DNA of 38,014 bases from Micrococcales bacterium (GTDB lineage: Bacteria > Actinomycetota > Actinomycetes > Actinomycetales > WQXJ01), in NCBI GenBank assembly GCA_009784895.1, contig WQXJ01000001.1:76479-114492 (forward strand), in the 5' to 3' direction. The notes under the pieces were generated by a model that made no database searches, was not told where the DNA came from, and was given only the letters and a program-made list of their open reading frames with translations. Position 1 is the stretch's first letter. The number at the start of each line of letters is the position of its first letter. Positions 8,750 to 13,800 of this stretch are shown one piece after another. A program made the translations under genes and the position numbers.

Positions 8750-10483
8750 GTGGTAGCCCAAGGGCCGCCCCTGACCCCAGGTGGCGATCCGGCATCGAGG
8801 GCCGCACGGCTGGAGGCGGCCCTGGCCGATACGCGCGCCAGAGCCGCTGCCCTGACCGCCCGTGGCCAGGCCTTGGCCAAAGAACTAGAGCAGGTCAGGG
8901 GGGCCTTAGCCGATCTAGCGTGGCGCCAACCCGGCCGCCGGCAAGGCCAGGTCAACGAATACGCTGAAGCCCTAGAGTCTGAGGTTTCGGACCGCTTAGA
9001 CCGAATCCTGGGACGGGCCGAAACGATGCTGGCTGACGGTGACACAGCGGCCAAACGGGAGCGTGACACAGCCCTAAGCTCCCATCAGACCCTTGTCTCC
9101 CTAGCCGCCAAAGAGGTGGCTGAGCTCAAAGCCACAACTCAAGCCCAGGCTCGGGTCTACCGGCAACAGACCCAAGCCCAATGCGACTCGATCACGGCCG
9201 AGGCCAACGCCCGGGCGGAAGAGTTGCGCTCGACGGCCAACCGGGCCGCGCTTGAACGCCGTCAAGTCGTAGTGGCCGAGTCAACGGCCCTGTCCGAGTC
9301 AGCTCGGCGCGAAATCGACACCATGAGGGCAGTGGCCGAGCGTGAGGTCAACGAAGTCCTCGGTGGCGCCAAGCGTGAGGCTGACGAACTCATGCACTCC
9401 ACCAATACCGAATTGGATCAGGTTATTGGCGACCTCCAGGCTGAGGTCGCAGCCTATCGCGAGGCCACTTTGGATGAAGCCGAGCAGGTTCTGGTGGCCG
9501 CACGCCTGGAGGCTGACGACATCCGCTCCCAAGCCGACCTAGAGGCCACAATGGCGTTGGAGAGCGCCCGGGAGGACTACGACGCGACCATGGCTGAGGT
9601 CGATGCCTACGGCCTTGAGCAGCGCAATATGGCCGCCGCTGAGGCTGGTCAAGTCAGGTCTGCCGTCCAAGGTGAGACCCGCGTTATGCGGGCGGACGCC
9701 GAATCCTATTCCCGCTCTTTGCGCGAGCAGGCTGATACCGAAGCCTCGGTCAGGCGGGCCGATGCCTTGACCCACGCCGCAGCCGTGCGCGAACAAGCTG
9801 AACAAGACGCCGCTTCGCTAACCGCCAAGGCCAGGATGGAAGGCGCCCAGATCCGGGCTGAAGCCTCGGCCAATTCGACCACTGTTCGCCGCACGGCCGA
9901 GGAAGAAGCGGCCCAGGCCACGGCCGACGCCCGCTTGGCGGCCGAACAGGTTCTAACTGCGGCGCGCCAGGTCTCTGCCAGCCGGCTAGAGGATGCCAGG
10001 ATCGAAGCCGACCAATTGGTCTCTCAAGCTCGCCAAGCCATGGAGCGGATGGAGACGACTATTGCCCAGCGCACTGAGACCAATCTGGCTCGCCTCAGTG
10101 AGGACCATGAGCGATCAGTCAGGGATGCCGAGCGATTGATCGCCGGGCCGGCCGAGCAGCGCTCCCAGGCCACCCAGCAACTACTTGAGGCCCAGGAACA
10201 GGCCAGCCAGGTCATCTCCCACGCCGATGACTACGTCGAAGTGCTAATGCTGGGGGCCCGTGAAGAGGCGGACTCAATCCTGGCCGAGGCCAACGCCACG
10301 GCCCAGGCCACGATGGACCAGGCCATTGCCGAGGCCTCAGAGCACCGCCAGCGCCAGCAACTTGAGATTGACCGTTTGCAGGGCCAGCGCCAGGCGCTCG
10401 ACTCCTACCTGACGCGCCTGCGCCGCTTGTTGTCACGTGACCTGGGACGCCCAGGCAAATCCAGCAAGAGGCCCGGGCCCTAG
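8750..10483 (+). CDS. Second hendecad coiled-coil protein, paralogue of the upstream gene
   Basis: 577 residues from GTG 8750, with a purine-rich GAGGGA at 8734-8739. The N-terminal 110 residues are an ordinary Ala/Arg/Leu-rich helix with no DivIVA-type module. From about residue 183 to 435 the sequence divides into some 23 consecutive 11-residue units (VAEREVNEVLG, GAKREADELMH, QAEQDAASLTA). The end, IDRLQGQRQALDSYLTRLRR, aligns with the end of the upstream protein. Both genes therefore derive from one ancestor, and this copy lacks the membrane-targeting start. Likely a partner filament or scaffold. Its stop overlaps the stop of the convergent hydrolase gene in a shared CTAG. Confidence 0.72.
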   Translation: MVAQGPPLTPGGDPASRAARLEAALADTRARAAALTARGQALAKELEQVRGALADLAWRQPGRRQGQVNEYAEALESEVSDRLDRILGRAETMLADGDTAAKRERDTALSSHQTLVSLAAKEVAELKATTQAQARVYRQQTQAQCDSITAEANARAEELRSTANRAALERRQVVVAESTALSESARREIDTMRAVAEREVNEVLGGAKREADELMHSTNTELDQVIGDLQAEVAAYREATLDEAEQVLVAARLEADDIRSQADLEATMALESAREDYDATMAEVDAYGLEQRNMAAAEAGQVRSAVQGETRVMRADAESYSRSLREQADTEASVRRADALTHAAAVREQAEQDAASLTAKARMEGAQIRAEASANSTTVRRTAEEEAAQATADARLAAEQVLTAARQVSASRLEDARIEADQLVSQARQAMERMETTIAQRTETNLARLSEDHERSVRDAERLIAGPAEQRSQATQQLLEAQEQASQVISHADDYVEVLMLGAREEADSILAEANATAQATMDQAIAEASEHRQRQQLEIDRLQGQRQALDSYLTRLRRLLSRDLGRPGKSSKRPGP

Positions 10484-11307
10484 TTCATCTGGCGATAGGC
10501 CTCGCGCAGCAAGCCGGCTGCCAGATCTGGGGCCTCAACCGGGCTGAGATGGGCCACATCGCTTACCACCACCAATTTGGCCTGCACGCCCAAGGCCTCG
10601 ACCATGGCCTCGGCTGCGCTGGTTGGCACCAAGGGATCTTCGGCTCCGCTAACCACCGTGGCCGGCAGTCCCCACCGGCGCAAAGTGCCAAAGGAGTCAG
10701 GCCGCGCTGCCATGGCTGTTTGAGCCCAAGCCACACCTGGGGGGTTGGCTGCCCCAATCCAAGCCCTCACCTGGGCCAGGCGGTCGGGGTGTTGGCTGGC
10801 CGTGGTGGTCGAAACCATTTGGTCCGCCAACGGCACTAAGGAGGCCACCGAGTTTTCCTCTGTCACCCGCCGCGCCACCGCCAGCCGGCTCTGCCGCGCG
10901 GCGGTGGCATCGGCCTCGGCCTTGGTGTGCATTAGCACCACACCGGCCAACAGCTCCGGGTGGTGTCGCATCAGGGCCATGGTGACGTAGCCACCCATCG
11001 ACACTCCCGCCACCACCGCCTGGTTCACCCCAAGCCGCCGCAAGCTCTGAGCCACCAGATCTGCCGCCGCTTCGACCGTGGCCTGGGCACAAATGGGCGA
11101 CTGGCCCTGCCCTGGCAAATCGATCAAAACGATTGGGACCGAAGTCATGACCCCGGTCAAGGCGGTAAACATAGTCGAATCAAAGGGGTAGGCGTGCAGT
11201 AGCACCAGCGGTACCACCCCGGCTTCGAGTTCGACCACCTGTTGGCACAAGGCCGGTGGCTCGAACGGCCCAAACCGCCCGGTCAAACCAATCGCCAACG
11301 GCGTCAT
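10480..11307 (-). CDS. Alpha/beta hydrolase
   Basis: 275 residues from ATG 11307, which overlaps the upstream hydrolase stop as ATGA; the frame is open for 42 more codons upstream but the coupled start is preferred. An alpha/beta-hydrolase fold is clear: LLHAYPFD near 37-43 (oxyanion loop), DLPGQGQS at 63-70, nucleophile elbow GVSMGG with Ser103, acid GAEDPLVP with Asp224, and base VAHLSPVEAP with His253. Spacing fits the 260-290-residue esterase/peroxidase-like group. The substrate cannot be read from sequence. No signal peptide, so cytosolic. It follows a second hydrolase of another subfamily in the same operon. Confidence 0.85.
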   Translation of the reverse strand: MTPLAIGLTGRFGPFEPPALCQQVVELEAGVVPLVLLHAYPFDSTMFTALTGVMTSVPIVLIDLPGQGQSPICAQATVEAAADLVAQSLRRLGVNQAVVAGVSMGGYVTMALMRHHPELLAGVVLMHTKAEADATAARQSRLAVARRVTEENSVASLVPLADQMVSTTTASQHPDRLAQVRAWIGAANPPGVAWAQTAMAARPDSFGTLRRWGLPATVVSGAEDPLVPTSAAEAMVEALGVQAKLVVVSDVAHLSPVEAPDLAAGLLREAYRQMN

Positions 11308-12071
11308 GGCGTCTCCTTCTTGGCGTAGGTCTGATAGGGGCCAAGCCAAGTCTCCGGCAGGGGCATATCCGTCACACCGGTCGACATGGCCAAATTGCCC
11401 AAGGCCCAATGCACCGCCCGTTCGCCAATCCAAAGATGACCAAAGCCCTTGCCTGGGACCACCTTGGCCTGACTAACCATGGCGAAACGGAGCTTGGCCG
11501 GTGCCGGAGGCAGGAACTGGTCGCGCTCGGGCACCAAGGCGACTAGCGGTTTGCGACTGGCGGCCCAAGCCAGCAGGTGAGCTGAACCGGTCCGCTTTAG
11601 CGGAGGCGACAGCAAAACCGCCCCTTCGATCGGCAAAGTGGCTCCGTGCATTAGGACAACTTCGCTGCCAAAGGACCAACCAACTAACCAAGGCGAACCC
11701 AAGCCATGGTCTAGGACCCAAGCCAAAGCCGCTTCGGCATCGTGCCGCTCCCCTACCCCGCCTTCGAACACGCCGCTGGAGCGCCCCAGCGAGGATTCGG
11801 TACCACGCGAGTTGAACCGCAACACCGCCAGCCCGGTCAGTGCCGGCAGGCGCCAGGCGGCCTTGCGGAATAGATGCGAGTCCATCGAGCCGCCCTCTGT
11901 TGGCAAGGGATGGAGCAAGACGACTGTCGCCTTGGGCGGCTGGTCCTCCGGTAATGCCAGCTCACCGACCAGTTCCAAACCATCAGCTGTATGGATCGCG
12001 ACAACCTCACGCCTGGCCGGCAAAATAGTGTGGGCCCCAAGCTTTACCCGGGTGGCGGTCGGTTGGCTCAC
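11304..12071 (-). CDS. Alpha/beta hydrolase, dienelactone-hydrolase/YfbB-like
   Basis: 255 residues with a beta-rich start, a LHPLPTEGGSMDS segment near 53-65 (oxyanion region), FNSRGTESS at 86-94, nucleophile elbow GWSFGS with Ser133, acid PERDQFLPP with Asp184, and base FGHLWIGE with His212. The RFNSRGTESS segment is typical of the KANL3/Tex30-type and dienelactone-hydrolase-like hydrolases that act on small esters or lipids. The substrate is unknown. It is the first gene of a two-gene minus-strand unit and its 5' region holds the structured element at 12149-12246, so expression may be attenuated there. Confidence 0.8.
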   Translation of the reverse strand: MSQPTATRVKLGAHTILPARREVVAIHTADGLELVGELALPEDQPPKATVVLLHPLPTEGGSMDSHLFRKAAWRLPALTGLAVLRFNSRGTESSLGRSSGVFEGGVGERHDAEAALAWVLDHGLGSPWLVGWSFGSEVVLMHGATLPIEGAVLLSPPLKRTGSAHLLAWAASRKPLVALVPERDQFLPPAPAKLRFAMVSQAKVVPGKGFGHLWIGERAVHWALGNLAMSTGVTDMPLPETWLGPYQTYAKKETP

Positions 12072-12148
12072 GCCTTTGAGCTTAGATCACTTGGTGTCGC
12101 CTGGGGGCGACCGCAGCCGGCGGGAATTGTTCACCAGCCCCCTGGGTG

Positions 12149-12246
12149 GAAAAGAAAAAGCCGGCTGGCCCGACCGAATAACGCCCAATCATTGGCGCCC
12201 TTTGAGGGCGGCGGGGCGAAACTGCCTCACGGTCAAGCCAGCCGGC
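12149..12246 (-). terminator. Intrinsic terminator-like stem of the candidate RNA
   Basis: Arms 12230-12246 and 12160-12176 form an uninterrupted 17-bp stem in minus-strand RNA, including two G-U pairs, followed by a ten-base U-rich tract with one C. The loop is long (53 bases) and itself contains a GCGCCAAT/ATTGGGCG hairpin at about 12183-12199, so it could also act as a regulated attenuator of the hydrolase operon. Confidence 0.55.
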
Positions 12247-12314
12247 GGCTAAGGCGCGACCAGCGGGACCAGGTGTAAGCCGCCGCTCCTTAGGCTGGAG
12301 CTACCGGGAGCTGC
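12149..12314 (-). ncRNA. Candidate structured small RNA or 5' leader
   Basis: A gene-free region between nucS and the hydrolase pair folds well as minus-strand RNA. From the 5' side: a small hairpin (GGAGC/GCTCC arms near 12284-12300), a hairpin with arms GGCGGCT/AGCCGCC (about 12243-12286), then a 17-bp closing stem (12230-12246 with 12160-12176) enclosing a 53-base multi-hairpin loop and followed by a U-rich tract at 12149-12159. The two non-Watson-Crick positions in the long stem are G-U pairs only on the minus strand, where the U-tract also lies. A TGTATAGT element sits just upstream. It does not match any RNA family I can recall (not RNase P, tmRNA, SRP or 6S). Confidence 0.5.
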
Positions 12315-12320
12315 TTCCGC

Positions 12321-12328
12321 ACTATACA
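12321..12328 (-). promoter_or_regulatory. extended -10 (TGTATAGT) for the candidate RNA
   Basis: TGTATAGT on the minus strand is a near-consensus extended -10 and would start a transcript at about 12314. A second identical octamer lies 48 bases upstream at 12369-12376. No convincing -35 is seen for either. Confidence 0.4.
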
Positions 12329-12433
12329 CCGGCCGCCACCGGGTCTCGCCTCGCCAGACCCGCCAGGGACTATACAAGAGAGGCGCTACCCCCCTACCTC
12401 TGACGCGGATTGGCCAAATTCTTGACCAAGGCC

Positions 12434-13129
12434 TCAAAAAAGCCTTTCGTCTGGTTTGTCCAGACCCCTCAACGCGTCGTAATCGATGACTACGCAACGG
12501 TGGCCTCGATCCTGGGCTAGAACCCTGGCTTGTGGCCTGATCACCTGGGCAGCCAGCAAACCAGTCACCGGCCCAAGGGAGGCGTCCCGGTTGAGCATTT
12601 CGACGTAGCGACTGAGCTGTTCAACACCGTCGATTTCACCTCGCCGCTTAACTTCAACCGCAACCGAACCACCGCCTAAATGCCGCAGTAGCAAATCAAC
12701 CGGTCCCAGCGGGGTCGGGTATTCGCGCCTGACCAGTTGCAGATCCTGACCTAGCAGCTCAACCCTTTGAGCCAACAACTCCTGCAAATGAGCCTCAACC
12801 CCGTCTTTGACCAGACCCGGATCCCGACCTAGTTCATGGGCGATTTCCTCGATCACTTCAAAAACAACGATCCGCAGGCGGTCATCGGTTTTGAGGTGAT
12901 CGACCTGCCAGATTTGCCTGGCCCCGGCCTGCCGTTCAGCGGCAGTTGGCTCGGTTTGACTTAGCCGGCAAGGCGGATTCATCCAGTTCAACGGTTTGTA
13001 CGAACCGCCGTCAGAGTGGATCAGGACAGAGCCATCGGCTTTTATCAGTACAAGCCTGACAGCTGGGTCCAAATGAGCCTCAAGCCGCCCGGAGTAGTCA
13101 ACGGCGCAGCGCAGGATAATCGCTCGCAC
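12434..13129 (-). CDS. nucS: Mismatch-specific endonuclease NucS/EndoMS
   Basis: 231 residues from GTG 13129. NucS performs non-canonical mismatch repair in actinobacteria and archaea that lack MutS/MutL, cutting both strands at G-T, G-G and T-T mismatches. Motifs of the PD-(D/E)XK nuclease domain are present: GPVDLL with Asp145, AVEVKRRG with Glu159 and Lys161, and QLSRYVE with Gln171. The N-terminal half is the beta-rich DNA-binding/dimerisation domain (YSGRLEAHL near 12-20). The C-terminal ERLF resembles the beta-clamp-binding tail described for this family. The start lies six bases after a TAGGTT element with no Shine-Dalgarno, so the mRNA may be leaderless. It is divergent from the adenosyltransferase gene. 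Identification is secure. Confidence 0.96.
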
Positions 13130-13135
13130 CGACCC

Positions 13136-13141
13136 AACCTA
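13136..13141 (-). promoter_or_regulatory. candidate -10 element for leaderless nucS
   Basis: TAGGTT on the minus strand is followed by six bases and then the nucS GTG. No Shine-Dalgarno is visible. It is the same hexamer found before glgC. Confidence 0.38.
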
Positions 13142-13170
13142 CCGTGTTGCTGCCCGGTGCCAGCCGCCTA

Positions 13171-13184
13171 GCGCACTAGTGTGC
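13171..13184. promoter_or_regulatory. 14-bp near-palindrome with overlapping -10 elements
   Basis: GCGCACTAGTGTGC is self-complementary except for one symmetrical C/T pair, centred on CTAG. It contains TAGTGT at 13177-13182, ending six bases before the adenosyltransferase ATG at 13189, which again suggests a leaderless start. The symmetry could also serve a dimeric repressor; I see no regulator gene nearby. Confidence 0.33.
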
Positions 13185-13188
13185 CGAC

Positions 13189-13800
13189 ATGGTCACAATC
13201 TCTCGCCTCTACACCGGCCGTGGTGACTTAGGTCAAACTGACCTGGCCAACGGCGCGCGGGTGGCCAAAACCGACTGGCGCATCGTGGCGCTGGGGGCCT
13301 TGAGCGAAGCCAACGCGACGCTGGGTTTGGCTTTGGCCGCTGGCGCCGGCCCGGCAGAAGCCATCGAGGCACTGCAGCAAGAGCTCTTTGACCTTGGGGC
13401 TGATATTGCCATGCCTTTGCCTTTGGCCGATGCCGCCTGCCGGGCACCCGGCCCAGGGGCGACTTCGGCTGGGGCGCCAAGGATTTCGCCAGAGCAAGTC
13501 AAGGCCATAGAAACCCAAATCGATGGCCTTAGCGCCTCCTTGCCACCTTTGCATTCGTTTGTCTTGCCAGGCGGCGGCGAGGTGGCAGTCAGGCTGCATC
13601 TGGCGGCGACGGTCCTGCGGCGGGCGGAACGCGCCGCCTGGGCGGCCGCGGAGCGGTTTGGCACTGATTGTGCCGGTGGGCTGAATTCGCTCGCCCTGAG
13701 CTACCTCAACCGCCTCTCAGACCTGGTTTTTGCTTTGGCACGTGTCGCTAGTCAAGGCCAAGAGACCCTCTGGCGGTCGAAGGCTGAACGGGCCGGTTAA
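13189..13800 (+). CDS. PduO-type cob(I)alamin adenosyltransferase, divergent active site
   Basis: 203 residues. The family transfers adenosyl from ATP to cob(I)alamin to make coenzyme B12 in the cytosol. Support: the N-terminal TGRGDLGQTDLANGARVAKT (aligning with the usual TGDDGTTGL..G.RV.K), FVLPGGGEVAVRLHLAA, RRAERAAWAA and YLNRLSDLVFALARV near the C-terminus, which are hallmark segments. Changes: the usual (V/C)DE(L/A)N reads LSEAN, losing the Asp, and the phosphate-binding GTT reads GQT with an inserted Arg upstream. Family assignment is good, full activity less certain. The ATG has no Shine-Dalgarno and lies six bases after TAGTGT. It is convergent with the atp operon. No B12-dependent enzyme is seen in the window. 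Confidence 0.85.
   Translation: MVTISRLYTGRGDLGQTDLANGARVAKTDWRIVALGALSEANATLGLALAAGAGPAEAIEALQQELFDLGADIAMPLPLADAACRAPGPGATSAGAPRISPEQVKAIETQIDGLSASLPPLHSFVLPGGGEVAVRLHLAATVLRRAERAAWAAAERFGTDCAGGLNSLALSYLNRLSDLVFALARVASQGQETLWRSKAERAG

Follow-up and report, generated by a model that had tools for sequence, protein, structure and literature searches.

The gap between nucS and a pair of alpha/beta hydrolase genes contains a hairpin (12160-12246) and an adjoining U-tract that together very probably form a factor-independent (intrinsic) terminator on the minus strand, serving leftward transcription. The element is best read as ordinary in kind and specific to its lineage. All positions are those of the window, by which we mean the whole stretch of DNA that was analysed (38,014 nucleotides), taken from a 2.36-Mb assembly of 111 contigs.

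The upstream gene, nucS (12434-13129, minus strand), encodes a mismatch-specific endonuclease identified by NF002876 (348 bits, above the cut-off), PF01939 and PF21003. Downstream of the terminator lies alpha/beta hydrolase 1 (11304-12071, minus strand), which has a weak match to PF00561, under the cut-off, and homologues in nine relatives; it is followed in the same direction by alpha/beta hydrolase 2 (10480-11433, minus strand), a PcaD-like protein matching PF00561 and PF12697. Thus the nucS and hydrolase genes that flank the stem are both on the minus strand. The gap itself had been given as 363 bases in the first-pass annotation; it is there, with a length of 362 bases (12072-12433). A Pfam scan assigned no family to the 82-aa open reading frame found in it (12249-12497, minus strand). 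Comparisons were made with 17 other genomes of the family and about 300 genomes of the order, the source genus being otherwise unrepresented. The five closest relatives of nucS in the named collection, at 66-69% identity, come from metagenome genomes titled Bifidobacteriaceae; Bifidobacteriaceae symbionts of the termite gut have been described (PMC11707648), and a termite-gut origin for the window as well would be a guess.

Anatomy and strand of the hairpin

The anatomy of the hairpin and its strand are established. An inverted repeat search recovered two arms of 17 nt each (12160-12176 and 12230-12246), 53 nt apart, in agreement with the stem and 53-base loop originally described. Read on the minus strand, the stem (12246-12230 / 12176-12160) encloses a weakly folded apical region of 53 nt, and all 17 of its pairs form, two of them G-U. 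The segment 12149-12246 folds on this strand at -54.9 kcal/mol, compared with -36.7 for shuffled sequences (z -4.9; 0 of 200 shuffles), and so has the stable, GC-rich stem above chance that is expected of an intrinsic terminator. On this strand the stem is followed at once by the U-tract TTTTTCTTTT (12159-12150), the U-rich tail of the original description; nowhere else in the 38-kb window, on either strand, are 9 or more of 10 consecutive bases T. Folding at the same stem is strong on the plus strand as well (z -4.7); the minus-strand assignment holds because the two G-U pairs form there and the T run follows the stem on that strand alone. Since the plus-strand side has no T run, the signal is one-directional. 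Of the termination signals in Bifidobacterium breve, 54% are stem-plus-polyT terminators, and where these have no polyA side they may work on a single strand only (PMC5746004).

Such an arrangement is improbable by chance. Dinucleotide shuffling of the gap produced a 17-bp stem in 6 of 2000 trials and a 17-bp stem beside a 9/10 T run in none of 2000. A few other stems of 15-18 bp occur in the window, none with a comparable T run, and a terminator scan of 11900-13250 matched at this combination of stem and U-tract alone. The claim of at least two further hairpins in the gap fared less well: 12320-12376 folds modestly (z -1.7), and 12247-12320 shows no excess stability over shuffled sequence (z +1.3).

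On the terminator reading, RNA polymerase that has passed leftward through nucS, or has started within the gap, would transcribe the 17-bp GC-rich stem, which would fold while leaving the enzyme; with UUUUUCUUUU following the stem, the complex would be released near 12150. Termination would thereby set nucS apart from the two hydrolase genes that begin 78 bases further on. We infer both termination in vivo and which transcript would end at the hairpin. Like intrinsic (rho-independent) terminators generally, the element has a GC-rich stem and then a U-tract, after a gene and on the coding strand. It differs from the usual form in its long 17-bp stem, in its loop and in its distance from the nucS stop codon, past which it begins by 187 nt (usually at most 80). 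A short loop and a nearby stop codon are typical rather than defining traits, but both departures are unusual: 53 nt is far larger than the customary loop, and 187 nt is a long way out for a plain terminator. Across 13 surveyed genomes, more than 97% of predicted terminators lay within 80 bases of a stop codon, and more than 90% had loops shorter than 13 nt (PMC8355165).

Comparison with relatives and known RNA families

The absence of the element from relatives is likewise established. Although nucS is present in all 17 of the other family genomes, the DNA after it differs in every one, and within up to 400 bases after the gene (one contig ends at 106 bases) no run exceeds 6 T in 10. BLAST, synteny and a covariance model all failed to reveal a homologue of the stem in these genomes; with the stem in 0 of 17 nucS-downstream regions, the first-pass candidate new structured RNA finds no support as a conserved one. 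A covariance model built from the single sequence detected, in its own genome, the locus itself and its plus-strand mirror fold, and gave matches in the other family genomes that were all at E above 0.1. The 228-base region (12149-12376) matched the genomes of the order in short stretches only, and the phage and plasmid collections not at all. BLAST also gave matches of 20-45 bases in relatives (E 1e-4 to 1e-2); these were scattered over the query and were treated as chance.

No Rfam family matched anywhere in the window at the gathering threshold; at a permissive threshold the best match in the region had an E value of 2.2. The small SRP RNA and RNase P RNA of bacteria are likewise structured intergenic RNAs, but both were located elsewhere in this genome, so the locus is no stand-in for either. 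Covariation cannot be counted because no relative carries the stem, and since no homologue exists its absence is a lack of data and not a disproof of structure. On comparison, a conserved new structured RNA family is not supported.

Homologues of hydrolase 1 occur in nine of the 17 family genomes, usually with hydrolase 2 nearby, but do not adjoin nucS within the stretches read. Since the flank of nucS differs in relatives and the hydrolase lies elsewhere, the junction between nucS and the hydrolases is peculiar to this genome, which alone within the family has nucS beside the hydrolase pair (10480-13129). In genome G004, of another genus, a homologue of hydrolase 2 lies about 40 bases after nucS.

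The TGTATAGT sites and other readings of the gap

A terminator is compatible with a free small RNA ending at it, in which case the stretch upstream becomes the product. Such an RNA would measure about 165 or 213 nt and begin at one or both of two -10-like TGTATAGT sites, and we regard it as possible but doubtful. Both copies of TGTATAGT noted at first pass are present, on the minus strand and 48 bp apart. Copy 1 (12369-12376), as a candidate -10 box, would direct a start near 12362 and a transcript of about 213 nt; copy 2 (12321-12328, TATAGT), another candidate -10 box, would direct a start near 12314 and a transcript of about 165 nt. The motif occurs only three times in the 2.36-Mb genome, so that two of its copies are here, on the appropriate strand. 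In the third (locus L157, motif at 1501), TATAGT stands 7 nt before the ATG of a putative argC-like open reading frame, named by eye from MVFSVAVAGASGYAGGEVLRLL, which is where a leaderless mRNA would have its -10 box. Open reading frames of over 400 codons follow two other TATAGT sites, and TAnnnT is the mapped -10 motif of another actinobacterium, Propionibacterium acnes (PMC3848588). The unusual distance from the nucS stop also favours a separate transcript over a plain terminator.

Against this, the two TATAGT boxes that might serve as the RNA's own promoter have no -35 element near them by eye, a promoter scan of 11900-13250 gave no match, and the pattern TATAGT-N4-8-RTG is not enriched genome-wide (6, against 24 in a reversed control). 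Much of the 5' half is the chance-level stretch 12247-12320, and neither the 17 family genomes nor the roughly 300 genomes of the order hold a homologue. The locus resembles terminator-ended small RNAs in being intergenic, with a terminator at one end and candidate -10 boxes 165-215 nt upstream, but differs from them in having no homologue and a 5' part that is not structured above chance. The fuller proposal, in which an uncultured lineage of actinobacteria akin to the metagenome 'Bifidobacteriaceae' makes a lineage-specific small RNA of about 165-213 nt from tandem TGTATAGT promoters, with a long branched terminator at its end, is somewhat less likely still. TGTATAGT may be a -10 box or perhaps an operator. 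Its duplication as the target site of a 40-bp insert was considered and rejected, the intervening stretch having no inverted ends by eye. Elsewhere in the genome (C10:18239-18275; loci L167/L168), a TATAGTAGATAGTGCGCGTAGGG-type repeat of about 23 bp precedes a 437-codon open reading frame with a GAKGVGKT motif and is possibly a duplicated promoter.

The first-pass suggestion of a leader attenuating the hydrolase genes, here through a terminator/antiterminator switch, is very unlikely. The terminator does lie 78 bases upstream of hydrolase 1, with possible promoters upstream of it in turn, but the reading is disfavoured because the best terminator-free folds from three assumed starts are weaker by 10.9-18.2 kcal/mol; there is no sign of a competing fold, that is, of a mutually exclusive antiterminator of comparable stability. 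In addition, no Rfam riboswitch was matched, and nothing comparable to the stem or a leader was found upstream of the hydrolase homologues in relatives. For leader peptides, the scope was the list of open reading frames of at least 20 aa.

The adjacent foldback repeat

Between the U-tract and hydrolase 1, and separate from the terminator, lies an isolated right end of a foldback element (12098-12146), which is dispersed through the genome and was recognised from its other copies there. This segment matches about seven other places in its own genome at 86-100% identity, together with weaker partial copies. Full copies measure 169-170 bp and fold over their whole length into one hairpin (z -9.4, computed on one copy); they have inverted ends of about 20 bp, with TA beside both ends in most. 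Variants include a 255-bp form, an 86-bp deletion form and solo right ends. The element is common to two genera, with copies at L140, L142 and L146 in the source genome and at L017 and L019 in G004, and in its sequence it resembles a MITE. That its end directly adjoins the stem and U-tract might suggest that the stem was left behind by a mobile or palindromic repeat and is not a selected terminator, but this is very unlikely, given that the stem is single-copy in the genome, that 12098-12148 is the only part of the gap to match copies of the element, and that the U-tract suits a terminator.

As a terminator, the hairpin would mark the boundary between nucS and the hydrolases in one lineage; proof of a short RNA ending at it would raise its importance. 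The foldback repeat, which another genus also carries, is perhaps of more interest than the hairpin itself and may tell more about how such gaps evolve.
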